The notes below the pieces were generated by a model. That model searched no databases, was not told the origin of the DNA, and saw only the letters and a list, made by a program, of their open reading frames with translations. Shown in pieces: positions 545 through 40,924 of a stretch of DNA of 46,982 bases. Origin of the DNA: a virus. The stretch lies in IMG/VR virus record IMGVR_UViG_3300037264_001228, positions 1-46,982 of that record, one strand, 5' to 3'. Made by a program: the position numbers and the translations under genes. Each line of letters opens with the position of its first letter. Positions within the stretch are counted from its first letter, which is position 1.

Positions 545-1599
545 CAGCTCCAGATCGCCCAGTCAAACTTTGCGATGTCGAATCCACCCTCAGCCTCCAA
601 TGCAGCCCTGATCGTGTCATCCGATACTCTGTAAATGATAGCATTTCTGGTTTCGCTGACGAAATTGAATTCTTGGTGCATGGGAATGCCTCTCAGTTCC
701 GATTGCCCTACCTTCGTCACGATTCCGCGCTCCCCCGTCCGCAACCTTAGCAAGACATCCATCTCCTTCATTCGGGGATGCCATAGCGACCACGAATCGA
801 AGTCATTGCTGAACTCAATGCCCTGTTCTGCCAGCTTAATCACGCGCTTGGGGAGATTCCCGTGCCTCGCCCGAATCTTGATGCCGGGGAAATAGCCACC
901 GGCAATGCCAGTGCCAAAGCACTCAATGCAACGATAACTGGACTGGTATTCGGGGTCCGTAGACTCCATGGCCTCGACCTCCGACGTTTTCATTGGGTCA
1001 AAGGGCTTGCCAAAATCGGCAACGGTTGCAGCCGACATCGGCGTCACCCTCCCCGATTTTCCGGGTTGGTGAGTGAGGCAGACACAGGGTTGGCCGAACA
1101 TTCTCCGAATATATAGCGTGAAGTCCTCGCCATCATTTTGAAGCATGGCCAAGTTCCGCCGACGAATCTCTTCGACATAGAACTTCATGTCGTCGTCCTC
1201 GATGATGTCGCGCCTGATCTCCTCTGAAATAGCATTAGCATCAAAGGCGTGGTTGATCGTGATATACACTGGCTCTTCTTGGATCATGGTAATGCCACCG
1301 CGAGGATTGACGTACCCCACCCAAAAATAAAAGACGAAGTCGTCGGGAACAGTGACCGGAATCTCGAAGACAGTGTTATAGGTTGTGGGTGGGAGGTCTT
1401 GGAATTTGTTGCGATTGGTTGGGCAGGGCGAAGCGTAGACGATGTACCGCACCGCCTCCAATGCAGGAGACCACCGCACAAAGAACTGCCTTACGTTCTC
1501 TAGGTCGGGCGTCACCACGACTTTGTCGGTTAACCCAATCGTGGAAGGCAGTGAGGGGTCTACGAGTAGCCCCGGTGTTTTTGGTTCCCATAGGGCCAT
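544..1599 (-). CDS. Virion protein with fibronectin-like N-terminus and CxC/CxxC zinc-type motif; neck or connector candidate
   Basis: 351 residues. The first ~115 residues are beta-rich (EAVRYIVYASPC, FVFYFWVGYVN) and look like a fibronectin type III-type fold. The rest contains FGQPCVCLTHQP and, about 50 residues later, YRCIECFGTGIAGGYFPG. The pattern C-x-C ... C-x-x-C-[FY]-G-T-G-x-x-G-G-Y-F recurs in head-tail connector/neck-type proteins of tailed phages, where the cysteines probably bind zinc; I rely on memory of that family and have not searched. It sits between an 851-residue unknown gene (7 bases upstream) and the partial tail-type gene at the window edge (TGATG overlap), consistent with a neck position. 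Its exact role is unproven. Confidence 0.7.
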   Translation of the reverse strand: MALWEPKTPGLLVDPSLPSTIGLTDKVVVTPDLENVRQFFVRWSPALEAVRYIVYASPCPTNRNKFQDLPPTTYNTVFEIPVTVPDDFVFYFWVGYVNPRGGITMIQEEPVYITINHAFDANAISEEIRRDIIEDDDMKFYVEEIRRRNLAMLQNDGEDFTLYIRRMFGQPCVCLTHQPGKSGRVTPMSAATVADFGKPFDPMKTSEVEAMESTDPEYQSSYRCIECFGTGIAGGYFPGIKIRARHGNLPKRVIKLAEQGIEFSNDFDSWSLWHPRMKEMDVLLRLRTGERGIVTKVGQSELRGIPMHQEFNFVSETRNAIIYRVSDDTIRAALEAEGGFDIAKFDWAIWS

Positions 1600-1605
1600 G
1601 CTGTG

Positions 1606-20918: not shown

Positions 20919-21896
20919 TTAGACCGTAGGCGTAATCGCGGCCTGAGCAACACCGGAAGTGTTGAACACACCCACACCGATCTGTTCCCACGCAAGGATA
21001 TCATACCTCATGTGCGGAACGTTGTCGAAGATTTTCACCTCGACAGCCTTTCTCTCGGGGAGGCGGCCAAACTTATCGGCAGTCGTCAACGCATAAACGC
21101 GATCCTTCCGGCAACGGGTGCTTACAAGCAGCTTTGCACCAAAGTATCCGCCGACCATTCCGGTCTCAACGACCTTGTTCAGCGTAACTTGGTCCAGCTC
21201 GTTAGCCGACCACTTCCAGATTTCCGCATACTGCACGGGGTGCATCAGGAAGGCGGCAACTTGCAACTGCTTATCCATAATGCGCTTACCAAGTTCGGCA
21301 AGCACGTACCTATTCATTGATGTTCCGGTAATCGTTCCGTTGGGGCCATTCGAGGCCGCAACATCCACAACGCCATCCTGTCCTAGGATCGTATCGTCTT
21401 CGCCAATGGCGATTGCGATTGCGACCCGTTCCTTCGCCCTGTCGAACACAGGGTACCGGCGGACCTGAATTTCGTCATACGCGACCTGCTGGACCGCGCT
21501 TAGTGGACTGGTTGGGAACTGAATACGCTTTACATTCGAGAACTGACGCACGGGCTCACCGCGACCTGCGAGGTAGACCGCCCCGAATTCAGGCAAGTCA
21601 ACGTCGTAGAAGGGCACGTCACCCGTAGCGATTTCGTCCACGACAAGGATGTTGTTACGTCCAATGGCGTGGTAGTCCAACCGTCTCTTCAAGACCGGAT
21701 GCATAGCGAAGGCGATACGGCGCAAGCCGTCCGGACGGGCCAAATCCTGCTCAAGCTTCTGTTCCAGAAGGGCAGTCGTTGGTGCCGAAGGGGAAGTAGC
21801 CTCTACCGAAATCTCATCAGTAGCGGACTTCATCAACGCATCGATAAACGCATCACGGGCTTTCTTACTCACGTGTGCTGCACTCACTCCAAACAT
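20919..21896 (-). CDS. Major capsid protein (HK97-fold candidate)
   Basis: 325 residues from ATG 21896. An upstream GTG at 21908 lies inside the ribosome-binding sequence AGGGGGTGAT and is rejected. The sequence has an N-terminal helical arm, an E-loop-like beta region (NILVVDEIATGDVPFYDVD), a long central body (QVRRYPVFDRAKERVAIAI; GKRIMDKQLQVAAFLMHP) and a C-terminal strand region (YDILAWEQIGVGVFNTSGVA), the layout of HK97-type shell proteins. Gene order protease, scaffold, decoration, capsid, each with a strong ribosome-binding site, and a hairpin after the stop, agree with the most highly expressed virion gene. Confidence 0.85.
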   Translation of the reverse strand: MFGVSAAHVSKKARDAFIDALMKSATDEISVEATSPSAPTTALLEQKLEQDLARPDGLRRIAFAMHPVLKRRLDYHAIGRNNILVVDEIATGDVPFYDVDLPEFGAVYLAGRGEPVRQFSNVKRIQFPTSPLSAVQQVAYDEIQVRRYPVFDRAKERVAIAIAIGEDDTILGQDGVVDVAASNGPNGTITGTSMNRYVLAELGKRIMDKQLQVAAFLMHPVQYAEIWKWSANELDQVTLNKVVETGMVGGYFGAKLLVSTRCRKDRVYALTTADKFGRLPERKAVEVKIFDNVPHMRYDILAWEQIGVGVFNTSGVAQAAITPTV

Positions 21897-21903
21897 TCTG
21901 TAA

Positions 21904-21913
21904 ATCACCCCCT
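21904..21913 (-). promoter_or_regulatory. Extended Shine-Dalgarno of the major capsid gene
   Basis: AGGGGGTGAT matches the full anti-Shine-Dalgarno complement AGGAGGTGAT except one position that still allows G-U pairing. It is eight bases from ATG 21896 and decides that start over the GTG embedded in it. The same motif precedes the decoration (22535-22544), scaffold (23546-23555) and protease (24668-24677) genes. Confidence 0.75.
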
Positions 21914-23554: not shown

Positions 23555-24658
23555 TTATGTTTTTGCGGTTGTGGAAGCATCGGATGCTTCCTCAACCTCT
23601 TCTTTCTTGTCTTCAACTTTTTCCTTAATCTCAGGCTTGACCTGAACTTGCATGTCCCTCAAATAGGGACCAAGTACCCGGTCAACCTCTGCCTTCACGA
23701 GCTTGTTGACCCTGCTCTTGACTGCTTGATTCACGGCACGATCAACGAGCTTGTTCAGCATGACTTCATCCGGCACCTTGACATCAACAAGGCCCGCACC
23801 CAATTCCGCCTTCTCCCCTGTCTCGGTCACGTCACCAATCTTCGACACGCCCTTATCGTCGGCGGCCTTGATCTCAGCACCTTGCACGTAATGCGGGAGG
23901 GCGTCGTGGTCGGCTGGTGCCTTGGTGAATGAAAGCTCATAGAACCTGAGATCGCGGCAAATGTCGAAGGCGATCCTGCTGTCGGGAAGACTCCGACCCT
24001 TGACACAGTGCCCGCTCTCACGATCCATGTGGGCACAGATTTCGTTCTTGCGCTTGGCGATATTCCCACAAATAGAGCACTCCGCAGAACCAGCAATGCA
24101 CCCAATAGAAACTCCCGCTTTCTTGCTGGTCCTGAAGGCGTGGCGAACCATGTCCGCTTTATCAGGGAACAACACCTTGTCGATGAGTGCGACACACTCA
24201 ACGAACTGTTCCTCTGGCATCCACTGGGCGTGGGCAATAATGCCCATGGCATTCAGCGGATCAAAGGAGTTGTGTTCGTCGTAGAAGCCTTTGGCAATCA
24301 GGCTTTGGTGGGAAGTTTCAAGTTCTTTGCCGGGGAAGGCGTCACCATTGATATTGGGACCCCACTTTTCCATGGCTGAAACCGCACGTACCCTGACGGC
24401 AAGGAAGCGGTCAAGGTCGAGGGGCATGAAGATCGACGGCATGATCTTCTTATCAACGTCCCCGTATTCGGGGTGGGTGGCCGTGACAATGTCCTGCCAG
24501 TACCGGCCCAGCTTGGTGCCATCCAAGACTTCGGCAGGAGAAACCAGCGTGGCTTCTGCTGCGGCAGTGATAACGATATCACTGTTTTTCGGCGTATAAA
24601 AAGAGCTTTTGACGACCTGATTCCAGACCCGACCAACAACCTTGTTGTCTACGAACAG
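23555..24658 (-). CDS. Prohead maturation protease with scaffold-like tail (probable CTG start)
   Basis: About 367 residues if translation begins at CTG 24658. The frame is open back to a TGA at the ribosome-binding site and holds no ATG, GTG or TTG before TTG 24526, which lacks a Shine-Dalgarno and would cut off a sensible N-terminus (FVDNKVVGRVWNQVV). From CTG numbering, H129 (YDEHNSFDP) and S184 (KAGVSIGC) are candidate catalytic residues of a gp21/U9-like prohead protease, followed by a Cys-rich insert (CSICGN...CAHM). The C-terminal ~90 residues are Lys/Glu-rich and helical like an assembly core. The gene precedes scaffold, decoration and capsid. Catalytic assignment is inferred from pattern. 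Confidence 0.75.
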   Translation of the reverse strand: MFVDNKVVGRVWNQVVKSSFYTPKNSDIVITAAAEATLVSPAEVLDGTKLGRYWQDIVTATHPEYGDVDKKIMPSIFMPLDLDRFLAVRVRAVSAMEKWGPNINGDAFPGKELETSHQSLIAKGFYDEHNSFDPLNAMGIIAHAQWMPEEQFVECVALIDKVLFPDKADMVRHAFRTSKKAGVSIGCIAGSAECSICGNIAKRKNEICAHMDRESGHCVKGRSLPDSRIAFDICRDLRFYELSFTKAPADHDALPHYVQGAEIKAADDKGVSKIGDVTETGEKAELGAGLVDVKVPDEVMLNKLVDRAVNQAVKSRVNKLVKAEVDRVLGPYLRDMQVQVKPEIKEKVEDKKEEVEEASDASTTAKT

Positions 24659-24951: not shown

Positions 24952-25443
24952 TTACGATGCTGGATTTGGGCGTTTGTGGACACAAATACCGCCATTTAAA
25001 TGCTTACTGGAATTACAGTTGTAACACATTACCTGTAATTTGGTGGGAAACCCATTGTTTTTTAACCACCGATAGTAATGATAGCCCCTACCGATTTCTT
25101 TCTTGTGCCTTGTTCCTCCACCGTCTACGTGATCTAACGTAAGCATCGTCGGCTCAGTTATGCCACAACATACGCATTTATATCCACCGTAAAAATTATA
25201 TGCCTCGTCCTTAAGTTTCCTGTGTTTTTGTGCAATGCTGGTTCTACACCCCTCACAATAAATCTTTCCAGCGATTGCCTTGTTATGACACGAAATACAA
25301 ATGCCTCCCTTCTTTTTATCCTTATAATTTTTGGCCCTTAATTCTTTATTTATGTAGCCCCGCCATTTAATTCTGCATTTTTCACACATTTTATAAGTCG
25401 AACCAACAACTGGCTCAGAACAGGTCGTGCATCGTTTTACCAC
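24952..25443 (-). CDS. HNH homing-type endonuclease
   Basis: 163 residues. The C-terminal half has the phage HNH plan: YKCVCCGITEP zinc knuckle, LTLDHVDGGGTRHKKE (HNH core His), YHYYRWLKNNGFP and VMCYNCNSSK. The N-terminal half has three further CxxC pairs (CTTC, CEKC, CISC) that likely form zinc fingers for DNA recognition. Base composition is visibly more AT-rich than in neighbours, and codon choice differs (many AAA, TAT, AAT), suggesting recent arrival as a free-standing homing endonuclease. It starts with a GTG overlapping the stop of the 1428-residue gene. Confidence 0.9.
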   Translation of the reverse strand: MVKRCTTCSEPVVGSTYKMCEKCRIKWRGYINKELRAKNYKDKKKGGICISCHNKAIAGKIYCEGCRTSIAQKHRKLKDEAYNFYGGYKCVCCGITEPTMLTLDHVDGGGTRHKKEIGRGYHYYRWLKNNGFPTKLQVMCYNCNSSKHLNGGICVHKRPNPAS

Positions 25444-28400
25444 AAATCACCGGGGACCTTGGTCTGGTACATTTGCCGGTCAAACTTCATTTCGTTGGGG
25501 GAGGGGCCGCCCATCGCTACTTCTGCGCCCGTAGTCTCACGGGAAGGATCATACTGAAACCGTTGCCTATCAACCTCTACAGCGAGTTCCCGGCGACAAT
25601 ATGGGCACTGGAGAACGCCCCTGTCCTCAAACAAACGCATGGGCTTCCGGCAGTACGCGCACTTAGCGCTGGCTTGGTGGGCTTCGGGGTTGGCGGCCTC
25701 AGCCACGGCTTTCGCCGGATCAACAATTTGTTTTTGTTCGGGGGAGAGTAGGTGCCAGAACTCGGCTTGGGCACGGTCCCGATCCTCCGTCACCAATCTT
25801 TCGATCACCACCCGCTTTTGATCTTCGGTGATCTTGTCCCCTACATCCCTTAACACCAGATGTGGTCGGGCTTGATCAATGGCGTACTGTATCTGTTCCG
25901 GGGTCATGGCCTCAAATGCCCGCTGTAGAGCCAGCATTGGATCACGGGCGATCATGGTGTTGGCCTCCTCAGACACTCTGGTCTCATTCACCTTGATCTT
26001 TTGTTCTGGGGAGAGTTGGTCCCAAAAGCTTGCCTCAAGCTCATCCTTGTCTTCAACAATGGCCTGTTCAATGGTGTATTGTTGTTGCTCGTGATCGAGT
26101 TTATTCCAAACATTCCTCATCACACGCATCGCATACGTGTTCTCAATGCAATACTTGATTTGTTCCGGAGTCATTTCCTCAATGAAGTCGGTGAGTGCCC
26201 GCAACGGTGCATCCCGCATAATCTGCTTGATATGGTCCTTGCGCTCTTTACCAACGGATTCCGGGTCAAGTCCTAGGGCGCTAATCTGTTCTGGAGTCAG
26301 AAGTTTATCAATGCCAAAGCGCTTATACTTGTACCATTCCCGCGCACGGTAGGGTTCCTCGCCCACGAGCCTCGCCACCACCGCAGCCTTCTGTTCTGAG
26401 GTCAGCTCCCTCTCAAATACCTCCTCAGCAAATAGGTTTGTGACGTTCCCGCGTTCAACGGCCCACTGTATGAGTCCCGCCTTCTCCTCCTCCGTCAACA
26501 ATCCACTAGCGAGTGCCCACTTGAGATTGCGATACCCATCCTTCACCGACTCCACAATCTTCATATGTTTGGCCATGGCTTGCCGTTGGGTTGGAGTCAA
26601 TTGATCCATGATCTGTTCAAACATATAGTCCCTAGCGTTACCATCTTCTATACCGGCATCAACGAATTGTGATTTTTGTTCCGGGGTCAGGAGCTTGGCA
26701 AAGGATCGCCAGAGAGCACCGAAGGAGTGGTCCCTGCCCTTCCACGCCCCCATCACCGCCTTGAATACCTGTTCTGGAGAGAGGAGATTACGAAATTCTT
26801 CCCTGTCCAATACCCAGCCCGGAGACTCGTCCACGACCAACATCACCAATGTCTGCTTCTGTTCTGAAGTCAGAAAGCTACGAACATTGCCAAGTGTCCA
26901 CGTCGCCATGTCCACATCCAATTTTGCTAACTCCATCAACGAAGCCACCGCCACCATATGCTGTTCTTTTGACAGGTCTGGGAGGTTCCTCAGCGCCCAC
27001 CGTGGATTCTTTTGGAGGGCGATGTCGATCACGATCTGCTTCTGTGGATCGGTCAGGTTCCGGAAGTGGTACGAATTAAAATGTTCGGCGTTTTCTGTGG
27101 CCGCTCTTGTCACACAGTCCGTCACCTGTTCTGGCGTCAGCCCCAAGCTCTCTCGATAGGCAAAGGCGACGAAGGGCTTGTCTTTGATGATTGACGCAGT
27201 AATTTCACGCCGCCTATCTTCCGGCACCTCTTTCCAGTAATCCCCAAACAAAAATTCAAAGTCCTCAGACTTGACGACATTACCCAGCACTTCCTGTCTT
27301 TGTTTGTCTGTGAGTAACGACTTATACGTAGTCAACAATGCCCGCCCTGCATACGCCTCCTCCACCTCAATCAGGGATTGGAGGGCATGTTGACGCCGCT
27401 TCTCGTCAAAGATTTCGGGATGGTCCAAAATCCCGGTAACGTTGTGGCGCATGAGGGTGGTGTACGCCGACGTTGTTGCCTTCTTCAATTGTGCCGGTGT
27501 CAAGAGTGGAGAGATGTTGACATAGTCACCGACAAATTTGTCGTAGCCCAACCGACCCATCATGCTGTCAAGTTGTTCGGGGCTAGCATTCGTATAAATG
27601 AAATCGTGCTGCCAGAACCTACTGGGATCGCCATCTATAACCGTTGACACGGCCTTGTGCTTGAGTTCGGGCGAGAGATCGGTCAAATTCTTTAACGCCC
27701 AGCGCGGCTTCACGCGTACCACCTTTTCCAAAACCTTGACCCGGTACTCTGGCGTGAGATCGCCACCGTGCTGCTCCAATACGTCGTCAGGGTCCATTCG
27801 GTCAAAGGCTTCTTCCAGTTGTTTCGGGGTCAACAGGGACTTGATCTTGGTCACGGCCCAGTTCGGGTCACTGCGTATCTGCTCCTGAATCATTTTCTGT
27901 AGACGGTCCTTGGGGAGGAGGTGGGGGACCGTCGTCAAGACTGCACTGGCGTAATCACGCTTGATGGCGATATCAATAATGGCTGTGCCCTTAGCCTTAG
28001 ACATGGTGTCAATGGCTTCTAGGGCCATAACCACCTGATTGCTTGACTCTTCCACGATCACCCTGTCGGCGGCGGCCTCTATCATTTGTGGCGTCATAAT
28101 CTTGCCACCCTTTTTCTTGTTGAGGGCAAGGAGTTGGCCCGGACGTCTTTTGATCAGGGACTTGAGTGCCTTGTCTTTAGCTTCTGTATCGGCCTCCTCA
28201 AAGAAGCCCTCGGCATCAAAGATGTCGTTGCCGTCTTCGGCACTCTTAGCAACGGCATCGGCCAAGATTTTTTTATGAGCGGGCTTAAATTTCTTGTGAA
28301 ATTGATTCCATGCCCCCTCAGTATCAACGCGGGGCAGGGTATAGGTAAGGGCTTTTTCGACCTGATCGTTAGATAGGTGCTCGTAGAGGTTGGTCAGTGC

Positions 28401-29723
28401 CCAGTAGTGCTCACCATCAACAAGAATAGCCTCGATGCCCCTGTGCTTTTGTTCAGGCGTCATAAGGGAAGAGAAATTGGTCCACGTAGACTTCGGGCTG
28501 TTCTTCATAGACTGATTCAGGGCATCATCCCGTTGTTGGTCGGTCATCGTGTCACTAAAGAAATTGAGAGCAAGCTGCGGCCTTTGTTTAACGTGTTTCG
28601 ACAACGCCTCTTGATCCGGCTTAGACTTGAGAATCTGTAGGTCCTCTGATTCCAAGTCTAAGCCGCCTTGTCCGCTCATCCACTTCTCTGGGAAGGAGAG
28701 AACGGTGTCCCGCTTAATGGCGGGTGAAGTCATGCGCCAGTCTCCGACAAATTCGGGGTGCGCCGACTCAACTCCCTGCTTCTGTTCTGGATTCAGGTCA
28801 GAAATGGCGAAGTTGTTAGGCGGATCATGCCCACCACCAAAGATGCCATTAATACCCGGCTGCTTTAATAGTTCCACGATATAGGGGTGGTACTCTTTCA
28901 CGGGCTTCTGGTTTGACCTCCCCTTCATCTCCCCCAGCCACCCCCCATTTAGGATGAACGTGAGTTCGGGCCTGACATAGGAGCGCCCCATCTGCTTTCT
29001 CAGGGAATAGATGACGTCTTTGTCGTCGGCATTGGCCGTGTTCCCGCAATGCCCCATGGCCTTACCTTCTTCTGGGGACTCCTTCTTGCCTAGGTTCCAC
29101 CACCCCCACCCGTCACCAAAGTCCATGACCTTGGTCCCTTCTACTGGGAGAATGTGGTGTTCGCTGATCTTGGACAGAGACAGCCAATTTGTGCGTCCGC
29201 GTTGGAGGTTGGTGAAGACGTCCTTGAAATTTGTACCCGTCCCCAACCCCACCCGCCGAATGTCTTCGGAGATATTATAGAGGTCGTCGATATCGATCAG
29301 TTTTTGCGCGGTCTCATCATCAAAGATCGAGGGATCATCTCTCCAGCTCCGCACCAGCCATGTCTGCAACGGCTCATGGTTGAGGTCGTTGGCCACGAAC
29401 TCCAAAAACCTTTTCTTGTTCGGGTCCGTGCTCTTTGTTGTCATTTGCTCAAATTGTTGCCGTAGCCGCTTGCTGGCTGCGGCCATCACCTCCAACCCAA
29501 AGGCCTTGGCGTCAAATTCGGTACCCGTAAACGGCATACCCGGCTTAATGGTGGAGTCGTCGTAGTCATTGAAAATCCGGTCAAAGTCGGAGAACCCCAT
29601 GTGTTCGGATTCGGTTTGTCCGGGTTTGATCAGGGACGGACCAGAGCCGGTTTGAACGCCCTTCTTGGGTCCAATCCGGTCCCGATAAATACGAGGCCTT
29701 GCTTGTGGCTTAGTCCAGCCCAT
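25437..29723 (-). CDS. Giant helical-repeat protein with PcfJ-like N-terminal segment and C-terminal zinc ribbon
   Basis: 1428 residues. It begins MGWTKPQA, a variant of the shared N-terminal peptide. Residues ~185-290 contain GHCG (C226), YSLRK, LTFIL and GEMKGRSNQKP (264-274), followed by YHPYIVELL, which resembles the conserved block of PcfJ-like phage/plasmid proteins. From ~330 to ~1340 there are many ~35-40-residue helical repeats, each carrying phrases such as LTPEQ, LSPEQK or MTPEQI next to D-P-x-x-A-L, i.e. an alpha solenoid. A zinc ribbon (CAYC 1355-1358, CPYC 1373-1376) closes the protein before a disordered tail. Its size, tag and position near the portal suggest a virion-carried or ejected protein; activity unknown. 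Confidence 0.85.
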   Translation of the reverse strand: MGWTKPQARPRIYRDRIGPKKGVQTGSGPSLIKPGQTESEHMGFSDFDRIFNDYDDSTIKPGMPFTGTEFDAKAFGLEVMAAASKRLRQQFEQMTTKSTDPNKKRFLEFVANDLNHEPLQTWLVRSWRDDPSIFDDETAQKLIDIDDLYNISEDIRRVGLGTGTNFKDVFTNLQRGRTNWLSLSKISEHHILPVEGTKVMDFGDGWGWWNLGKKESPEEGKAMGHCGNTANADDKDVIYSLRKQMGRSYVRPELTFILNGGWLGEMKGRSNQKPVKEYHPYIVELLKQPGINGIFGGGHDPPNNFAISDLNPEQKQGVESAHPEFVGDWRMTSPAIKRDTVLSFPEKWMSGQGGLDLESEDLQILKSKPDQEALSKHVKQRPQLALNFFSDTMTDQQRDDALNQSMKNSPKSTWTNFSSLMTPEQKHRGIEAILVDGEHYWALTNLYEHLSNDQVEKALTYTLPRVDTEGAWNQFHKKFKPAHKKILADAVAKSAEDGNDIFDAEGFFEEADTEAKDKALKSLIKRRPGQLLALNKKKGGKIMTPQMIEAAADRVIVEESSNQVVMALEAIDTMSKAKGTAIIDIAIKRDYASAVLTTVPHLLPKDRLQKMIQEQIRSDPNWAVTKIKSLLTPKQLEEAFDRMDPDDVLEQHGGDLTPEYRVKVLEKVVRVKPRWALKNLTDLSPELKHKAVSTVIDGDPSRFWQHDFIYTNASPEQLDSMMGRLGYDKFVGDYVNISPLLTPAQLKKATTSAYTTLMRHNVTGILDHPEIFDEKRRQHALQSLIEVEEAYAGRALLTTYKSLLTDKQRQEVLGNVVKSEDFEFLFGDYWKEVPEDRRREITASIIKDKPFVAFAYRESLGLTPEQVTDCVTRAATENAEHFNSYHFRNLTDPQKQIVIDIALQKNPRWALRNLPDLSKEQHMVAVASLMELAKLDVDMATWTLGNVRSFLTSEQKQTLVMLVVDESPGWVLDREEFRNLLSPEQVFKAVMGAWKGRDHSFGALWRSFAKLLTPEQKSQFVDAGIEDGNARDYMFEQIMDQLTPTQRQAMAKHMKIVESVKDGYRNLKWALASGLLTEEEKAGLIQWAVERGNVTNLFAEEVFERELTSEQKAAVVARLVGEEPYRAREWYKYKRFGIDKLLTPEQISALGLDPESVGKERKDHIKQIMRDAPLRALTDFIEEMTPEQIKYCIENTYAMRVMRNVWNKLDHEQQQYTIEQAIVEDKDELEASFWDQLSPEQKIKVNETRVSEEANTMIARDPMLALQRAFEAMTPEQIQYAIDQARPHLVLRDVGDKITEDQKRVVIERLVTEDRDRAQAEFWHLLSPEQKQIVDPAKAVAEAANPEAHQASAKCAYCRKPMRLFEDRGVLQCPYCRRELAVEVDRQRFQYDPSRETTGAEVAMGGPSPNEMKFDRQMYQTKVPGDLW

Positions 29724-29973
29724 CGTCTTTCTTGGTCTCCAATTCCTTTATCTTCTGTAGCTGCTCGTCAAGTTCTTTTATCTGTAGCTGCTCGTCAAGG
29801 TATTTTACAGTATTCGCAAGATTCTCGGCCACCTTTTCTAGGCTGAGCTGGGCTGAGAGGATGGTATCGTCATAGTCTTCGTCCGTTGAATAAAGGGCGG
29901 TTTTAATGGCTTGGAGATCAGATTCCATCTCCTGAACAAACGCCAGCAAGGGGTCAATGTCCTCCCTATTCAT
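29710..29973 (-). CDS. Small coiled-coil protein
   Basis: 87 residues, nearly all helical, with heptad-like stretches (LSLEKVAENLANTVKYLDEQ; LDEQLQKIKELETKK) and a duplicated LDEQLQ-IKEL unit. Overlaps by 14 bases with the giant repeat gene and by 4 bases with the preceding gene. Probably an oligomerising partner of one of these. Confidence 0.65.
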   Translation of the reverse strand: MNREDIDPLLAFVQEMESDLQAIKTALYSTDEDYDDTILSAQLSLEKVAENLANTVKYLDEQLQIKELDEQLQKIKELETKKDDGLD

Positions 29974-30938
29974 ACGTGATACGGCAATCTGCCGCCCATC
30001 TGTGTATAGATTTCGGCCAAGGCCTCCCTAGGTCTGCCCCCACGCGCCTGAAATCCCCACCCCCAAAGATCATTGGCGAGATACGCACCCTTCCCCGTTT
30101 GCCTGATGGATATGCCAACCCTTTTCTCTTGTTCTGTGGGGGGTGTGCCAGAGGGGAGGGCGGGGAGATCGGCAATATCCATCCACTCCCATTTCTGCAT
30201 CGTCTGAAATCTTTCCGGCGTATAGGTCTTTTCCATCGTCTTCTTGTGTTCTTCTTCGTAGACGCGGTTTCGATCTGGCATGGGCAAGTCCTTGCCAAAC
30301 TCAAACCTCAGGAATCCCGTCACTTCCTCGGGTTCGGTCTCGGCTTCTAGCCACGCCCACGCCTCGTGGTAGCTGGGATTCTCCTCGGGTCCACCCATGG
30401 TCCGGTACAGCGTCTCATACGAAACCCCTAGATCGGGGACGAGCACCTTCAGCTCTGCCCACGTATAGGCGTGACTGGCGTATCTCCAGCCTGTTTTGGT
30501 TCGACGCTTCTTATAGGCTTCCAAGGCATCCTCTCCCTCATCAACATGAACCGTGATCCCCGTTGCCCCATCCAAAAATTCCAAGAATAGGGTCGCAACA
30601 TCCAGCATCTCCACCGGCAGCCACGTTAGTACCTGCTCGACAGTGGCTTCGCCCCTGTCCTCACCCAACATTAGATTAAGCTCTGTGCCCGGTTCCCAGC
30701 GTCCCCTGCACCAGCCACGTCCCACCAACTCCCTGACAATCTCCCAAGCCTCTTCATCGGCACGGCGATAGTCACGTACTGAGATGGCCTTGATCTGACG
30801 AACCCGGTCTTGGAGATCGTCAGGGAATGCGTCCACTCTATCGAGGATGATGTCGTGGTGCCATTCCCCTTGCAGGATTCTGCCGTTAGGGTCTACGAGG
30901 AAGGCAACGCTGGCGAGATCAGCCTGAACCCAACTCAT
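29970..30938 (-). CDS. Tagged protein carrying the domain shared with the ligase and primase
   Basis: 322 residues. N-terminus MSWVQAD is the recurrent peptide of this region. Residues ~13-146 (FLVDPNGRI ... HHDI ... RGWCRGRWEPGTELNLM ... TWLP ... DEGEDALEAYKKR) align by eye with primase residues ~759-868 and ligase residues ~103-226. The rest has several Trp-rich segments (EAWAWLEAE, WEWMDIADLP, NDLWGWGFQARGG). No catalytic motif recognised. It is coupled by ATGA junctions to genes on both sides. The shared domain links this block with the LigD-like pair 20 kb away. Confidence 0.7.
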   Translation of the reverse strand: MSWVQADLASVAFLVDPNGRILQGEWHHDIILDRVDAFPDDLQDRVRQIKAISVRDYRRADEEAWEIVRELVGRGWCRGRWEPGTELNLMLGEDRGEATVEQVLTWLPVEMLDVATLFLEFLDGATGITVHVDEGEDALEAYKKRRTKTGWRYASHAYTWAELKVLVPDLGVSYETLYRTMGGPEENPSYHEAWAWLEAETEPEEVTGFLRFEFGKDLPMPDRNRVYEEEHKKTMEKTYTPERFQTMQKWEWMDIADLPALPSGTPPTEQEKRVGISIRQTGKGAYLANDLWGWGFQARGGRPREALAEIYTQMGGRLPYHV

Positions 30939-31309
30939 TGGCGTCCCTCAATATATCTGGCGGCTTCGGCAATTTGTTCTTCGGTAACCCCCTCCATAGT
31001 AAAAGTTTCCTTCGCCTCACTTTCGGATATACGCACTACTTGTATTTCCTCCGGAGGATGGGAAAAGCCAGCCTGTTCTATGATTTCTTTGAGGGGGCGT
31101 TCCCCAACTATATCGATGCCAGTATTCGGGTCTTTCAAAACAATGGCGTGGACCGGTTCGTAATCTTTTTCTCCCCATTTGTCAGTCCTAACTCCTTGAA
31201 TAATTGCAATGGGGTATCCAAATTTACGATGTAGGGCGATAGCATAAGCATCGCACATGCCGTGACCATAAGAATAGGTGCTGGTTTCAGCGGCCTGAAC
31301 CCACGCCAT
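30935..31309 (-). CDS. Tagged small protein with possible papain-like Cys-His-Asp residues
   Basis: 124 residues beginning MAWVQAAE (shared peptide). After it, YGHGMCDAYAIALHRKFGYP contains C19 at the start of a helix, EPVHAIVLKD gives H54 on a strand and GIDIVGERP gives D66. This Cys-helix, His-strand, Asp-strand order is that of papain/transglutaminase-like hydrolases or of inactive relatives. C19 lies close to the N-terminus, so the peptide directly precedes the presumed active site. A helical tail ends the protein. Activity is a hypothesis. Confidence 0.65.
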   Translation of the reverse strand: MAWVQAAETSTYSYGHGMCDAYAIALHRKFGYPIAIIQGVRTDKWGEKDYEPVHAIVLKDPNTGIDIVGERPLKEIIEQAGFSHPPEEIQVVRISESEAKETFTMEGVTEEQIAEAARYIEGRQ

Positions 31310-31509
31310 TATCCACCCACCGTATAAGAGCCATCTTCCCCAGTCATCCGGTCCCTGAGGATGATCAGCTTCTCGGCCACAGCCGACACCAAGTCCCGAA
31401 CGACTTCTGCGGTATCGGTATCTGCGGACGCAGAGACTTCGACGCCCTCAATTCTTTGTAGGAGGGAGTCGATGTGTGCTAGGGCGTCTTCATAGTGTGG
31501 GTCGGCCAC
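31309..31509 (-). CDS. Small helical protein
   Basis: 66 residues, two predicted helices (YEDALAHIDSLLQRIEGVEV; EVVRDLVSAVAEKLIILRDRM) and a short C-terminal end. One-base overlap with the next gene; the start abuts the stop of the 346-residue gene. Lacks the MSW-type peptide of its neighbours. Function unknown. Confidence 0.6.
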   Translation of the reverse strand: MADPHYEDALAHIDSLLQRIEGVEVSASADTDTAEVVRDLVSAVAEKLIILRDRMTGEDGSYTVGG

Positions 31510-32550
31510 TTACCTAGGCTCGGACATGGTTTCGGTGGGGTCTTCGGGAACCACAGACCCACGATTCTGGAATGGGTTAGCGTACACAGCCGCAACAAGA
31601 TTCGGATAGGGGTAGATGCCGTTGGCTTGCAGGACCTTGGCGATGACGTCTTTGACGGCGGCATCACTCGGCTGTACCGTGCCCCACTTCGTCAGGGCCT
31701 TGACCTTGTCCTTCATTTCCTTTTCGTGGTTCTTCTTGATCTGGTCTACGGCAGACTTCCAAATCTTTTGTTCGGCCAATCCCAAGAGATAACAGGCCCG
31801 GATTTGGGCTGGGATATCCTTGTACCCCATTGCCTGAATCACCAGCTTCCGTGCATCTTCGGATGCGGTCACGGGATCGATGACTGAGGCCTCGGTTTCG
31901 ACCATGCCCCCCTCTTCCTGCATCTTCCTGAAGTCTTCGGGAGCCGCAGTAGATGCGGGGCTGTATTCGGTAATCTTCCTGAGTTCGACTAGCGGTGCCC
32001 ATTCCGGGGTCTTGGCATCACCATCGAGATTGATCTGGGCGACGTCATTCTCAATGGACGCAATCTCCCCCTGTGCAAAGCTATCATGTCCCATCCAATG
32101 CACGGGGAACTCAACCTTATCCCCCACCTGAAATGATGCCGGGGCATCAGCCGCCTTCCTCACCAACTTTTTATTCGCGCTTTCTGTGGCCACAATCGAT
32201 TCCTCCTCTGTCGCGGGGGCTGGAGCTTCGGCTTCCTTGGCGTAGTCTGCCCTGATCTTGGCGATCTCCGCAGAGCCCGTCGTCACAATCACGAATCCTT
32301 GACTCGTACTTTCAATGGCGATCTCCGTCACATTACCTAGTTCGGGGAATGCCTTCAGGTCGTCGGCACTCACGGCAATGATAGTGACGAGAGAACTATC
32401 GTTAAAATACAGGTCTTCACCTGCCCCCTCCATCACCATATCCCAGAAGTAGGGGACGTACAGCATCTCGCTTTCGAACTTACCGGGATTCTGAATAATG
32501 CCCCGTTCGTCAACGTTAAAGTCCTTCATGATCTGGTCCCTCGTCAACAT
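31510..32550 (-). CDS. Hypothetical protein with central SH3/KOW-like barrel
   Basis: 346 residues. N-terminal alpha/beta part (TIIAVSADDLKAFPELGNV), Ala/Glu-rich linker, then FQVGDKVEFPVHWMG...GEIASIENDVAQINLDG, which reads as an SH3/KOW-type barrel. The C-terminal half is helical (IRACYLLGLAEQKIWKSAVD) with a closing YPYPNLVAAVYANPFQ. No catalytic motif. It lies between tagged genes but lacks the tag. Confidence 0.65.
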   Translation of the reverse strand: MLTRDQIMKDFNVDERGIIQNPGKFESEMLYVPYFWDMVMEGAGEDLYFNDSSLVTIIAVSADDLKAFPELGNVTEIAIESTSQGFVIVTTGSAEIAKIRADYAKEAEAPAPATEEESIVATESANKKLVRKAADAPASFQVGDKVEFPVHWMGHDSFAQGEIASIENDVAQINLDGDAKTPEWAPLVELRKITEYSPASTAAPEDFRKMQEEGGMVETEASVIDPVTASEDARKLVIQAMGYKDIPAQIRACYLLGLAEQKIWKSAVDQIKKNHEKEMKDKVKALTKWGTVQPSDAAVKDVIAKVLQANGIYPYPNLVAAVYANPFQNRGSVVPEDPTETMSEPR

Positions 32551-32558
32551 CTGTCCCC

Positions 32559-32951
32559 CTAGTAGTTAAAGATTTGTTCTGGTGATAATACGGAATCTGG
32601 ATCGACCTCGTTCACGGTCTCCACATTGATGTTCAGGGAGAGGTCGGGATTCGCACTGGGGTCGATCTCGGCTTCCACCCGCTCTTGAATATATGCGTTC
32701 AGTCCTGCCTTCAATTCTGGCATCTTTTGATGCATAAGTCCAACATATTTGTCACGAATACGATCATGCATGACATCCCGCATGCCCTCGTCTGTCGTCC
32801 TCATGAACGCATCCTCAATTTCTTTCCTGAAGGCGTCATACATTTCCTTGACGCCGGGGGCCGACGTCAGGTCCAAGGAGCTGAGATCAAAGGAGAAGGT
32901 GAGGGTGCCCGTGACTACGGGAGCGCGGGCGGCTTTCCGGGTCCAACTCAT
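32559..32951 (-). CDS. Tagged portal-adjacent protein
   Basis: 130 residues starting MSWTRKAARAP. A short beta segment (TGTLTFSFDLSSLDL) is followed by a helical body (VKEMYDAFRKEIEDAFMRT; LKAGLNAYIQERVEAEID). The start overlaps the portal stop by 4 bases. The length equals the 130 residues of the possible internal product at 34719-35111, which also starts with the tag followed by a beta segment. A portal-associated or internal virion protein is a reasonable guess. Confidence 0.65.
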   Translation of the reverse strand: MSWTRKAARAPVVTGTLTFSFDLSSLDLTSAPGVKEMYDAFRKEIEDAFMRTTDEGMRDVMHDRIRDKYVGLMHQKMPELKAGLNAYIQERVEAEIDPSANPDLSLNINVETVNEVDPDSVLSPEQIFNY

Positions 32952-34744
32952 CCCTCACCTCCGGGCTCTTTTTCACCGGGTCTGGGCTTACGCTCAGGCA
33001 AGCCCCCCTCAGGTGGTGATGCCGGGGCCTTGTCTTCGGATTCGGCTGGCTTCTTCCCGCCTTCAGGTGGGGTGACCATCGTCGATGGTCCAATGGCTTC
33101 CGGCAGCTTGAATTCCTCGGGCTTCCCCCGCCCCTTGGCTGGAGTCGTCTTCGGTGGCTCTGGTGGGGCTTCGTCCTTCTGCTCCTTGAACTTGGCCTTC
33201 AACGCTTCATCGATGTCGTCACCTAGGATGAGCTTCTTCGCTAGCTCTGGGTCCTTGGCGATGGCGTCGTCAACCGCCTTCCTCCACTTCGGGTCGAGTC
33301 TCGTTCCTTCCTCGCGCTTCAACTGGTAGATGATGTCGTCCAAATCCCAGCCCATCATTTCTGCGACAAACCGCATCGGAATTTCCTTCTTGTCCCGCAG
33401 CGTCATCGCCATGGTCATGATGGCCTGATTCGAGAGTAGGTTCGCCTTCTTCCAGAAGAACTCGGGGATGATGAGGTTGCTGTCGGTACGCCGGGTCCTG
33501 ACGTTGTGCGCTATATCGGCTGGGGATGGCTTATAGAACTTCCGTGCCCGTGCCAAGTGATAGAAGACCTTGCGCTTGATCTCGCGTTCGAGCTGGTTCC
33601 GCACCGTCAGGTAGCGGTTCATCAACCCCTTCATAAAGGTGATGCCAGATGCATACGGGGTCTTTTCACCAGACACGATGGCATCACTCACAAACAAACC
33701 GGCAAAGATTCTCGACTTCACCAGTTCGTAGTACGGGATCAAGTGCAAAATCTTGTCGTGCCCAGTCACATATTCAATATTGATGAAGGGGTGGGTGACG
33801 AGGTTGTAGTCGGGGTCGTTGGAGGCTTGGACGAGTTGTGCCCGGAACTCGCTGAACATCTTCCGGCTCGGGATGAAGCCCTTGGATTCGGACCCCAGCT
33901 TGAAGAGCTTGAGCGGATACGAGTGGCGCTGGATGAAGGTGGTGCGGTAAAGGTTCAGGAAATCCTCGTACATGAGGTCCTTGACCACGGACAATAACGG
34001 ACTCACACCCCTCTCTATGTACCCCGCCATCGTCCTCTGCATCACGATCAACTGGCTCGACTTCAGAATGTGGGGCTGGTTATTCGCAATGGCGTGGGCC
34101 TGTTGGGGCATTGCCGTCCTGATGTAGTCGGCAATGATGATGTCGGAGGGATTCGTTGACCCCATGAGCTTGGCAATGTCTTTGTTCGGGCGCAACGCAT
34201 ACACCTTTTGGGGGCTGATATAAGCTGACGAAATCTGGACCTCTTCCGGTGGGTAGTGGACAAAGGAGTCGAATTCGAGTTCGGTGTCATCCCAATTCCC
34301 GAAATGGAAGCTCTCACCCAACAGCCAGTAATCGCGCAGGGCTTGGGTGCAGACCTCAAACAGGTCTACGCGATCCTTATAGTCCCTGTAGTATTCTTCG
34401 GCTTCGGTACTTTCCGGACACCGTAGCTCAAAATCAGAAATCGGGGTCTCGGTGTGGAAGTCGATGATGGAGCGGATATAGGGGTTGTACCTGTAGTAAT
34501 GGCGTAGACGCCGATTGAGTTCGCGGATATTGTCTTGGGGGAACAGGACAAGGATTTGGTCGAACATCGGGTCCATGTAGAGCATGGGAATACGAATGGT
34601 TCCCATGTCTCCCGACCCAAAGAATCCACCGTCAGCAGCCGTAACCTTAAGCAGACCCTCTTCTCTGTTGTTTTTGGCGGCTACAGCGGCTTCAAGTCGT
34701 AGGTCGGACTCGCTTCGATTAGACGACTGCCTCGGGTTGCTCAT
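32948..34744 (-). CDS. Portal protein
   Basis: 598 residues from ATG 34744, chosen because AAGGAAGGA lies seven bases upstream; the frame extends to 34840 but that part overlaps the preceding gene. The fold cues match portals: N-terminal wing with RIPMLYMDPMFDQILVLFPQ, NPYIRSIIDFHTE, GESFHFGNWDD, a clip/stem region (TPYASGITFMKGLMNRYLT), long helices and a C-terminal Pro/Lys/Glu-rich disordered tail (PKTTPAKGRGKPEE). It forms the dodecameric ring through which DNA passes and on which terminase docks. It lies about 4.4 kb after the large terminase with small unknown genes in between. Length is within the family range. Confidence 0.88.
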   Translation of the reverse strand: MSNPRQSSNRSESDLRLEAAVAAKNNREEGLLKVTAADGGFFGSGDMGTIRIPMLYMDPMFDQILVLFPQDNIRELNRRLRHYYRYNPYIRSIIDFHTETPISDFELRCPESTEAEEYYRDYKDRVDLFEVCTQALRDYWLLGESFHFGNWDDTELEFDSFVHYPPEEVQISSAYISPQKVYALRPNKDIAKLMGSTNPSDIIIADYIRTAMPQQAHAIANNQPHILKSSQLIVMQRTMAGYIERGVSPLLSVVKDLMYEDFLNLYRTTFIQRHSYPLKLFKLGSESKGFIPSRKMFSEFRAQLVQASNDPDYNLVTHPFINIEYVTGHDKILHLIPYYELVKSRIFAGLFVSDAIVSGEKTPYASGITFMKGLMNRYLTVRNQLEREIKRKVFYHLARARKFYKPSPADIAHNVRTRRTDSNLIIPEFFWKKANLLSNQAIMTMAMTLRDKKEIPMRFVAEMMGWDLDDIIYQLKREEGTRLDPKWRKAVDDAIAKDPELAKKLILGDDIDEALKAKFKEQKDEAPPEPPKTTPAKGRGKPEEFKLPEAIGPSTMVTPPEGGKKPAESEDKAPASPPEGGLPERKPRPGEKEPGGEG

Positions 34745-35111
34745 TAATTCCTTCCTTTGGGGCTGCGATTTCGGGCTTCTTGGTACCGGGCTTAGTCTTG
34801 TCGATGCGGTTGAAGTATTCGGCCCAGTCAATGTTACCATCCTCGGGTTCGGGTGAACCCGTATTCAGGATGATGATGCCTTGAGACGATGCGTATTCGT
34901 TGATCCCGCGTAACTTATCAGCCACAATCTCCCTCAACATCTGCGGGGCAACCTCTTGGGCCTTGGCGACCTTGCGGTCCACGGGGTCAGTGCTGGCACG
35001 AAGCCGTTCGATTTCGGGACGCTTCTCAATATCGGCAATCCCCACCGTGACCTTGGCTTCGGCGTGTACCGTAAACTCGATATTGCTTGCCGCCTTCACT
35101 GTCCACCCCAT
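34719..35111 (-). CDS. Possible nested internal-start product (130 residues)
   Basis: In-frame with the 215-residue gene. ATG 35111 has AAAGGAG nine bases upstream and starts the peptide MGWTVKAAS, matching the N-termini of other proteins here. If used, it yields a protein with the same length and the same tag-plus-beta-strand layout as the gene at 32559-32951. Not certain to be expressed separately. Confidence 0.45.
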   Translation of the reverse strand: MGWTVKAASNIEFTVHAEAKVTVGIADIEKRPEIERLRASTDPVDRKVAKAQEVAPQMLREIVADKLRGINEYASSQGIIILNTGSPEPEDGNIDWAEYFNRIDKTKPGTKKPEIAAPKEGINEQPEAVV

Positions 35112-35366
35112 GGTCTTGTGCTCCTTTGCTGCTCGATGAAACTGCATCGCCTCTGTCGTATCTTCCTGAATGCCTTCACGTTCCATCAACTGCTTCAGCG
35201 TTTGTATCGCCTCATCTAGAAAGCCGCCCTGATACTCCCACCACGCCTCTTGAAAGGTGGCGTCGATGTGGGGGTCGAGATCGTTTTCCATGAGCTTTTT
35301 CGCCAGCTGCTTAATAAGCCTAACTTTGTCGCGGCTGGCATCATCAGCCTTAATCGTCCAGCTCAT
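34719..35366 (-). CDS. Tagged protein, with second in-frame tag and internal start site
   Basis: 215 residues starting MSWTIKADD. The first 85 residues are helical (KVRLIKQLAKKLMEND; DEAIQTLKQLMEREG). At residue 86 the peptide recurs as MGWTVKAAS, followed by a beta segment (IEFTVHAEAKVTVGI) and a helical C-terminal part. AAAGGAG stands nine bases before that internal ATG (35111), so it can be translated as a separate 130-residue protein, or the gene is a fusion of two tagged genes that kept the second start region. It overlaps the portal start by 26 bases. Confidence 0.7.
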   Translation of the reverse strand: MSWTIKADDASRDKVRLIKQLAKKLMENDLDPHIDATFQEAWWEYQGGFLDEAIQTLKQLMEREGIQEDTTEAMQFHRAAKEHKTMGWTVKAASNIEFTVHAEAKVTVGIADIEKRPEIERLRASTDPVDRKVAKAQEVAPQMLREIVADKLRGINEYASSQGIIILNTGSPEPEDGNIDWAEYFNRIDKTKPGTKKPEIAAPKEGINEQPEAVV

Positions 35367-35614
35367 GTTGGGGTCTCCAATTCTAGCGCCAACTCAGACT
35401 CGTTCACGTTCACGGCTTCTTCATAACGCCGCTGTGCAGTATCAACCCGGTCCTGAGCCACCTGAATTTGGGTCTCAAGCTCCTGAATTTGTGCTCGGTT
35501 ATGCATTTCCACTACTGCCAGATATTTTTCGGCCTCATTCACTTCCTTCTCGGCCTCCACCATGGATTGATAGGGGTCGGCTCCGAAGTGGTCGGCCTGA
35601 ATGACCCAGCTCAT
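35363..35614 (-). CDS. Tagged coiled-coil protein
   Basis: 83 residues starting MSWVIQADHFG, then a continuous charged helix with heptads (MVEAEKEVNEAEKYLAVVEM; IQELETQIQVAQDRVDTAQ). The stop overlaps the next gene as ATGA, the start overlaps the previous stop. A tagged oligomerisation module next to the portal; function unknown. Confidence 0.7.
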   Translation of the reverse strand: MSWVIQADHFGADPYQSMVEAEKEVNEAEKYLAVVEMHNRAQIQELETQIQVAQDRVDTAQRRYEEAVNVNESELALELETPT

Positions 35615-39172: not shown

Positions 39173-40924
39173 CTACGCCTCCTGAATTAGTGTGCCGAAT
39201 TCTGCGAGATTGCTGGTGATCACTGTCCCCGGCAAGTTGCTTGTCGTCATACTTTTATCGATCAAGACATTGAATCCGCCGACAGTGGCGTCCACAATGT
39301 CCTTCCGCTCACTGATCTTCTTGTCCAAAAACGTCACCCCGTCCCGCTGCTTGATCGCCTTCAACTGATTCATGAAGGAGGGGTCACGTGCGGGATTGAT
39401 GATTTTGGCAATGTTCATGGCCATGGCCCGTCTGAAAATACCGTAGTCTCGATCCGTGGTGTGATACTCTTCGGTTTTAGCCCCACGCTTATGTAGGTCT
39501 GCCATAAAGAGCTTAGACTGCCACTGGTCAAAGCCAAACTTGATGTGGGGGACAAATGCCGCAATCAAGAACAGGGTCTCGCGGACATTGTCAAAGTCCA
39601 CCGGAATCCCCTTCTCTACGTTCGGTGTCCACGTCCAAAACGCATCCTGAATGTAGCCAACATTGGAGTCGTAATGCTGAAGCACCATGGCTGTGGCAGC
39701 GAAACTCTCCCCTAAGTCCGTCGTCAGCAGGTAGTCTTCTTTGAATCTGTCCTTGTTCTTGGGGTCGAGGCCGTGCAACTTCATACAAATCTTGCCGCCA
39801 CTCACAAACTGTTCGCCTACGATCAACGGGGATTGACCGTGGACGGCGCGAATCAATACGTCGTCGGGGAGGACGCGAGTCGCGCCTGAAGGTGGCTCAC
39901 ACAGGTATAAGCGCATGCACGTCGAGAAATCGCTTTCGAAGCTCTCCTTGAGTTCGATGGGGACCTCGACATCGGCAAGGTCTTCGGGGACGTGGCTGCC
40001 AAGGCTACCTAGCTTAAAGGTGACGCCACTCTTCCAGCGCGTGGGATTGAACTCCCAACTCGTACCCTTGGTCCCCCAAATACTGCACTTGGTGACGTTG
40101 CCGTCTTTGTCGGTGACAACGTCCTTCCCCTTCAGGGCTTCCTCGTAGAGGGCGTAGGTGAAGTCAACGTCTTTCTCATAACGAGGGAATGAGATCACCA
40201 TTCCCTTCCATTTGCCGGGGAAACGGGAATTGGCCGAACTCTTGAGGGTATCGTAGACCTTTTGGCCATTGCGTTCCTTGTTCTGGGCCTTGAACGCGGA
40301 CGACTCCGACATCACCCAAAACAGGATGTTGTAGCCTTCGAAGGACTCGTTGGCAGAGTGCTCAGAATAAATACGGACGTTGTTGTGGCTGCAAATGGAG
40401 TCGCCAAGCACGAAGACCTCGGGCTTGCCCTTCTCACTCACAAACTTCTCCCCCCAGACCACGGTGTAGTTGGCCCTCAACCACTTCCAGTATTTAAATC
40501 GCTGCTTGATCTTTTCAAAGGTGATGCGCTTGGCTTGCTCAGCAGAGTAGCTGATGATGATGATGTCGATGGGTTCTCCCGTGGGAAACCCGAAATATGC
40601 TTGTGGGTCTTTCATGCACATCAACAGGTAAAAGCAGTAGGTGACAGCGACAGACGCGATGTAGTCCTTGCCACTGCCCTTACCCGCCAGAATGCAGATC
40701 AGGTTGTAGGGGGAGCCGTTGTCAAAGACCTTGCTTGAGTCCTCACCTAAGAACGTGATGAGTTCTTGGTATTGTCTGGGAGTGAGTGGGGGCAACCGCA
40801 AATGTTCCCTCACGAACTCCTGAAGGGGGAGGGGTTGGTGTTGCCAAATCTCGGATCGGGTCCGGACTAAGTTGTCGGACTCCTTGAGGAGGTGCTTGAA
40901 AACCTCAGGGTTGATGTTGGGCAT
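39173..40924 (-). CDS. terL: Large terminase subunit (packaging ATPase and nuclease)
   Basis: 583 residues. ATPase: Walker A LAGKGSGKDY (79-88) with Lys K86 and the P-loop in the variant G-x-G-S-G-K-D; DIIIISYSAEQAKR follows; Walker B region YNILFWVMSES (198-208), with E207 as the likely catalytic Glu. Nuclease (RNase H fold): LTTDLGES with D403, GFDQWQ with D466, DIVDATVGG with D542/D545. It drives DNA translocation into the prohead and cuts genome ends, docking on the portal. The start overlaps the small-terminase candidate by 20 bases, the usual order. Length is typical. Confidence 0.93.
   Translation of the reverse strand: MPNINPEVFKHLLKESDNLVRTRSEIWQHQPLPLQEFVREHLRLPPLTPRQYQELITFLGEDSSKVFDNGSPYNLICILAGKGSGKDYIASVAVTYCFYLLMCMKDPQAYFGFPTGEPIDIIIISYSAEQAKRITFEKIKQRFKYWKWLRANYTVVWGEKFVSEKGKPEVFVLGDSICSHNNVRIYSEHSANESFEGYNILFWVMSESSAFKAQNKERNGQKVYDTLKSSANSRFPGKWKGMVISFPRYEKDVDFTYALYEEALKGKDVVTDKDGNVTKCSIWGTKGTSWEFNPTRWKSGVTFKLGSLGSHVPEDLADVEVPIELKESFESDFSTCMRLYLCEPPSGATRVLPDDVLIRAVHGQSPLIVGEQFVSGGKICMKLHGLDPKNKDRFKEDYLLTTDLGESFAATAMVLQHYDSNVGYIQDAFWTWTPNVEKGIPVDFDNVRETLFLIAAFVPHIKFGFDQWQSKLFMADLHKRGAKTEEYHTTDRDYGIFRRAMAMNIAKIINPARDPSFMNQLKAIKQRDGVTFLDKKISERKDIVDATVGGFNVLIDKSMTTSNLPGTVITSNLAEFGTLIQEA

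Follow-up and report, generated by a model that had tools for sequence, protein, structure and literature searches.

How do proteins that have nothing else in common come to open with the same short peptide? The question is raised by a 46,982-base virus record (IMG/VR IMGVR_UViG_3300037264_001228; the window, meaning here the whole stretch), nearly all of whose genes lie on the minus strand. Six genes around its portal gene begin with variants of M-[SAG]-W-[VT]-x-[KQ]-A, which we call the tag. An earlier note on this DNA proposed a virion-loading or processing tag, and this is the reading best supported by sequence evidence, which comes from outside the window: similar leaders recur in related phages of the same head lineage, match sites around the head protease, precede effector-like cargo, are swapped between homologous proteins and have T4-like counterparts. 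We put at roughly 70% the probability that the tag is an N-terminal leader that would both target cargo to the capsid and be processed, for later ejection. Handles with L or G numbers below are our own, for the loci and phages compared.

All six starts, and a seventh copy inside the 215-residue gene, are present on the minus strand exactly as the note had quoted them (Table 1). By our own simple gene calls the tagged genes are numbers 26, 28, 29, 32, 34 and 35 of 50, all within ten consecutive genes spanning the portal. There are two departures among the seven copies: the [KQ]-A core is missing from MGWTKPQA, and MSWVQAD is shorter by a residue. As the note had claimed, it is the peptide that is kept rather than the DNA, with codons varying between copies (AGT/AGC, ACC/ACG/ACT/ACA, AAA/AAG, GCC/GCT/GCG), and the bodies behind it are unrelated, their best mutual match (E 0.24) not being meaningful. 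Its suggestion that the 851-residue gene is a diverged case does not hold; ISWTEFAKA occupies residues 7–15 and is not N-terminal, and the gene is therefore not counted. We note separately that this gene (window 1606–4161) has a weak C-terminal match to the MutS2/Smr-associated SH3 domain (MSSS, PF20297). Upstream of the internal copy (start 35111) lies aAAGGAGcacaagacc, with a Shine-Dalgarno-like AAAGGAG, and this copy may be an internal start or a second module.

The tag is not readily explained by chance. Tryptophan at residue 3 is found in 6 of the 50 explicit window genes and in 11 of 1507 background genes (about 0.7%; binomial P = 1.8e-6), and no background gene (0 of 1507) starts x-[SAG]-W-[TV], a pattern that was picked post hoc. 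The tagged proteins of the window gave no reliable match against PHROG and Pfam, and the 1428-residue protein has no passing Pfam domain. The 322- and 124-residue proteins had no tblastn match to named phages, the former being unmatched in 50,697 phage records, and the 322- and 1428-residue proteins matched nothing in the PDB by sequence. The AlphaFold model of the 124-residue protein from its single sequence was unusable, with a predicted local distance difference test score of 47.

A wider class of tryptophan leaders is present in IMG/VR. A scan for M-[SN]-W-xx-K-A starts located L218, where MNWYKSEE, MNWYRIAQ, MNWYLFKQ and MSWYKKAG cluster near the gene for the major capsid protein (MCP). 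MNWYxxAQ occurs in 45 stretches and the scrambled control MNYWxxAQ has 38 matches, raw counts that are uninformative on their own; only position at the start of an open reading frame (ORF) and recurrence discriminate. On these measures 30 loci have a tagged ORF start and 13 have at least two, as against five and one for the control. Adjacent genes with MNWYKxAQ-type starts form runs of 15 in L254, about 12 in L270 and six in L239, and ATGARYTGGTAY occurs about 125 times across 20 whole records, compared with twice for the reversed pattern. MNWYKxAQ has four matches in the 257 Gb of bacterial and archaeal genomes searched, where about seven are calculated by chance. A search by MCP, blind to the tag, gave 80 loci, and MNWY- or MSWY-type starts lie within 10 kb in 14 of them. 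The head families of the window are also found in the tag phages whose head genes were checked (protease, MCP and portal in G015; protease in G005; by alignment, the MCPs of both G005 and G008 and the G008 protease), and tag clusters adjoin the MCP and protease genes in G003, G005, G008 and L397–L419. Tags are also seen at residues 5–8 and inside proteins, including internal NWYKxAQ copies in the relatives' proteins. Several tag contigs are fragments with no recognised MCP. In the open-licence literature MNWYKKAQ was unmatched, and the matches to “NWYK” appear, from their titles, to be unrelated.

Two further arrangements were seen in these loci. A longer second leader module of about 36–45 residues, KISxxEWxxIGKxAGWxKxAQ, with the GWxKxAQ core at its end, sits on differing bodies (L310:1042–1407 and 1425–1844, minus strand; L333:4450–4968; the L291:10014 region). 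L284:9505–16808 holds about 11 tagged paralogues in tandem, a cargo family whose members read MNWYKxIK[ILV]ALP and then Y-x-[DS]-[IV]-GH.

The proteins behind the relatives' tags are diverse. The 137 tagged proteins fall into 88 unrelated sequence clusters, with synonymous codon variation; only M1 and W3 are near-invariant among them, residue 7 being A, I or S. Pfam matches include ART-PolyVal, AAA_33 kinases, GNATs, methyltransferases, cREC, 2H phosphoesterase, HicA, G6PD and PcfJ, and in the well-matched cases checked the domain starts at residues 11–23, right behind the tag. In the glucose-6-phosphate dehydrogenase of L291:12179–13501, for example, MNWYKWAQPQ is followed by the domain from residue 18. 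The type I Thoeris inhibitor Tad6 matches the product of L295:555–980 (4.5e-35), which starts MNWYKQAQ; an Acb1-like match at L341:12162–12680 is below cut-off. As judged from these matches the tagged cargo is effector-like (ART-PolyVal, Tad6, 2H phosphoesterase, cREC). Since one peptide heads unrelated head-adjacent proteins in the window, and comparable peptides head dozens of enzymes and defence inhibitors in related uncultivated giant phages, it is most likely a mark for loading into the particle and delivery to the host.

A connection to the head protease is suggested by a second set of matches. The protease of most tag phages forms the N-terminal portion of a longer polypeptide, about 1,840–2,030 residues in length, which we call the protease-scaffold protein. 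In about 20 divergent members of the family KTA[SAK] or a near variant lies directly upstream of the protease domain (for example VKTASKVVKIAP, VKTAAKVVKIAP in phage G, IKTASGRV, VKLASGTI and IKTASVDI). PhiKxA[SAQT] is 4–10 times more frequent than in shuffled sequences in most of the protease-scaffold proteins of tag phages, several of which themselves open M-x-[FM]-[IYM]-K-x-A. The leader core PhiKxA[SQ] matches these sites, and from this agreement of motif and position the head protease could plausibly act on the leader.

Leaders of other types occupy the same position. A motif-free test for recurrent N-termini found, besides MNWY, MKIIKTAxY (L418, L419), MKRLV (L080, L113) and MDKVII (L098), and N-terminal Phi[KR]xA[QSTKNE] is present in 4–6% of genes of the lineage, compared with 0.8% of controls. 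Phage G has leaders of MKRL[IV]KKA type; MKRL[IV] opens seven of its proteins, among them gp13, gp38, gp53, gp126, gp334 and gp610, and in three an HGT motif follows (LMHGTSS in gp53, FFHGTD in gp610 and LYHGTSS in the minus-strand gene starting at 179,204). The HGT motif resembles that of ADP-ribosyltransferases (ARTs), and the PARP-family matches of gp53 (E 2.5e-4) and gp610 are below cut-off. Leaders are also swapped between homologues. MKLIRTAKS in L403 and MSWYKTASD in L391 precede bodies that are 61% identical over 176 residues; MKIFKISQ in L389 and MNWYKQAQ in L254 precede bodies 35% identical over 214 residues. MSWYKTASDES of L391, an MCP relative, is the closest bridge to the MSWTIKADDAS of the window.

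Homologues of the 1428-residue protein also start with other leaders. Residues 150–345 (window 28689–29276) form a conserved domain, AMGHCGN...TFIL..GxLGEMKG...GGG, that is common to jumbo phages and is shared with gp31 of Salicola phage SCTP-2 (L386) and 31 other viral loci. SCTP-2 gp31 starts MRLNNLFES, and many of these proteins have a start that resembles the capsid-targeting sequence (CTS) of T4, examples being MRAKEFLLEAQ, MLSYKQFILTEA, MKNIRILLEAQ and MRFQEFSKF. With homologues starting in this T4-like manner, the cargo family therefore has a T4-like leader in T4-like phages and the tryptophan tag here. The earlier note had held that homologues lacking the peptide would count against its idea; the homologues lack it only in the sense that they bear a different leader. 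Neighbouring-gene runs with T4-like leaders were also observed in SCTP-2 and in L513, one of the loci that share the domain (MKVKHITQYLFES; MKTYKEWLxE): five SCTP-2 genes start MKxxHITQYLFES and seven neighbouring genes of L513 start M[KL][TS][YW]K[EQ]WLxE. Both genomes apparently encode many CTS-bearing internal proteins.

In the mechanism we propose, the leader, of about 7–9 residues, would bind the prohead scaffold core or the protease assembly, and by this binding unrelated cargo proteins would be incorporated into the head. Cleavage after the conserved alanine (W-x-x-x-A / x), by the head maturation protease that the phage itself encodes, would free the cargo within the DNA-filled head to be ejected into the next host. 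W3 and [YTV]4 would serve targeting and A7 would be the P1 residue, with a protease of a family other than that of T4. The MSW[TV] version of the window would work as the MNWYKxAQ version of the relatives.

Several observations weigh against this mechanism or against extending it to the window. Within the window's own head proteins x-[KQR]-A-[ADS] sites number 12 with 8.1 expected (p 0.13), and because these internal sites are not enriched, any cleavage site in the window is a guess. Its tags have the core x-[KQ]-A-[AD], not [aromatic/aliphatic]-[KR]-x-A at that position, and its N-termini show no enriched [KR]-x-A core. Most of the 80 MCP-related loci examined have no W tag, and such a leader is absent from Myrna, E3 and Stormageddon, actinophages whose MCP is related. 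Plain MSWTxKA has 69 scattered, chance-like matches in IMG/VR, with no contig carrying a series. Of 62 tags in the tag phages only 27 are found at 10 kb or less from the MCP gene (15.5 expected), and some tagged proteins (G6PD, HNH- and HTH-like) are not obvious virion cargo. Single-sequence searches of the collections with the portal found no close relative of the window. The portal relatives in IMG/VR (L076–L113) have about 30% identity or less, with Trp3 in 2 of 520 genes, and none of them is a close relative bearing the same tags. As judged from sequence, it is position (W3 and A7) and head genes, not the core, that link the window to its relatives.

Several of these points also bear on other explanations. 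The leader might direct proteins to the prohead, the portal or another phage structure and stay uncleaved. In its favour, no residue is as constant as W3 and variation is seen around A7; the core in the window is itself variable (QAD, KAA, KPQA), its internal sites are not enriched, and in T4 the residues for targeting and processing are separable (PMC9026906). This is an unlikely alternative, as the relatives' core matches sites next to the protease domain and others along the scaffold, and outlasts the leader swaps. Somewhat less likely is that the MSW[TV] starts of the window are a local coincidence or are unrelated to the MNWYKxAQ leaders, for which one may cite that the searches showed no window-type tags in an intermediate series and that the [KR]-x-A core is not enriched at its N-termini. 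The improbability of its W3 count, the identical W3...A7 spacing, the bridge in L391 and the shared head families all count against this reading.

The tag could also be a localisation signal for some other phage-made compartment, such as a membrane, replication factory or phage nucleus, unrelated to the virion; the distance of some tags from head genes, seen in several contigs, and the HNH- and HTH-like proteins among those tagged would suit such a signal. We consider it improbable, given the clusters beside MCP and protease genes, the match to protease sites, the ART and anti-defence cargo and the T4-like leaders on homologous cargo. Finally, the 5′ ends might be shared by duplication, recombination or start context (ATGA overlap, translational coupling) with no function at the protein level. 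All six tagged ATGs do overlap the preceding stop, in five of them as ATGA or TAATG and in the sixth by 14 bases; G002 has a true paralogue array. The ATGA overlaps bias codon 2 toward Ser/Asn/Lys-type residues but favour neither Trp at position 3 nor Ala at position 7. Such an origin was already disfavoured, and the synonymous codons, the 88 unrelated clusters, the tags at residues 5–8 and at internal positions and the differing leaders on homologous bodies leave it very improbable.

The head genes place the window, by the fit of its portal, MCP and protease families, in the Bacillus phage G-type head lineage. Its protease has tblastn matches to phage G gp19 and to the protease-scaffold proteins of tag phages. 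By alignment the MCP has an N-terminal extension of about 36 residues with ALMKSA/TDEIS (MIYRMFGVSAAHVSKKARDAFIDALMKSA/TDEIS) that its relatives lack and that is possibly a cleaved delta-like region. In these head families and in a recurrent leader on several unrelated head-adjacent genes the window shows two features of the phage G-type leader class, whose [aromatic/aliphatic]-[KR]-x-A core it lacks.

Table 1 Copies of the tag and head-related genes in the window
Feature	Position	Strand	Details
Tag MSWVIQAD	35591–35614	−	Opens 83-residue coiled-coil gene (35363–35614); W3 and A7 match the relatives' MNWYKxAQ
Tag MSWTIKAD	35343–35366	−	Opens 215-residue gene (34719–35366)
Internal tag MGWTVKAAS	35085–35111	−	Residue 86 of the 215-residue gene
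Tag MSWTRKAA	32928–32951	−	Opens 130-residue gene (32559–32951), immediately following the portal gene
Tag MAWVQAAE	31286–31309	−	Opens 124-residue gene (30935–31309)
Tag MSWVQAD	30918–30938	−	One residue shorter; opens 322-residue gene (29970–30938)
Weak tag MGWTKPQA	29700–29723	−	Opens 1428-residue gene (25437–29723)
Portal gene	32948–34840, likely start about 34744	−	phrog_16240, E 2.8e-42; 27% to phage G portal, the nearest named relative
Head maturation protease, start uncertain	23555–24526	−	phrog_2774, 3.7e-22; phrog_18299, 2.4e-10
Major capsid protein	20919–21908	−	phrog_2522, 2.4e-28; alignment
Terminase large subunit	39173–40924	−	Context gene

We lean, with some reserve, towards a broader proposal: that phage G-type jumbo phages use a widespread, undescribed code for loading cargo. 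Lineage-specific addresses (MNWYKxAQ, MKIIKTAxY, MKRL[IV]KKA, MSW[TV]xKA) would be placed on any body, and the head protease would cleave them after Ala; the virion arsenal (ADP-ribosyltransferases, anti-Thoeris, Acb1-like and other enzymes) would be readable from metagenomes, and leader swapping would exchange cargo between phages. If so, the first eight residues could be used to predict which proteins these mostly uncultivated jumbo phages package and eject, proteins that are otherwise invisible without virion proteomics. It would also suggest that anti-defence and host-modifying proteins of the lineage enter with the DNA, ahead of the defences, and that T4 CTS-like address peptides had independent origins, or diverged independently, with differing head proteases. 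Phage G is culturable and mass spectrometry of its virion is cited in the literature, making the idea testable at once.

Among known systems the T4 CTS is the nearest parallel. A T4 CTS of 10 residues, of which 4 and 7 serve targeting and 8 and 10 processing, is sufficient for the loading of foreign proteins, and gp21 cuts it (PMC9026906). The T4 internal proteins are diverse anti-restriction proteins with only the CTS in common (PMC3012670). Leaders of the T4 type are propeptides of 10–19 residues common to unrelated internal proteins, and the tag would be a putative counterpart. Both the CTS (IPI, IPII, IPIII, Alt) and the tag are short N-terminal peptides on diverse host-takeover or anti-defence proteins (PMC9026906, PMC3012670), with a head protease encoded (Table 1), ART cargo and tagged genes near head genes, and by this analogy the tag likely works like the CTS. 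Judged by its sequence it is not the T4 CTS, because the gp21-type [LI]xE site is missing from the window tags; the motif here is W3...A7 and the relatives have PhiKxA[QS]. The head here is of phage G type, the protease belongs to phrog_2774/18299 and there are far more tagged genes per genome. In SPN3US and phiKZ the prohead protease gp245 likewise strips N-terminal propeptides from ejected head proteins (PMC10052503), but those propeptides are mostly of 111–254 residues (two of 20–24), have another cleavage motif and offer no parallel to a short tag shared among many small genes. The polyvalent proteins of phages (Iyer et al. 2017, PMC5512222) are virion-delivered conflict proteins that include ART-PolyVal, here found behind the tag; they are large, with 2–15 domains, whereas the tagged proteins are mostly short and single-domain with a small leader, and a term search of the paper found no N-terminal leader. 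Bacillus (Lysinibacillus) phage G shares the portal, MCP and protease families of the window and has recurrent MKRL[IV] leaders, which differ in having no Trp and for which no published description was found in the open-licence literature; its virion mass spectrometry is cited as ref. 4 in PMC8570332.

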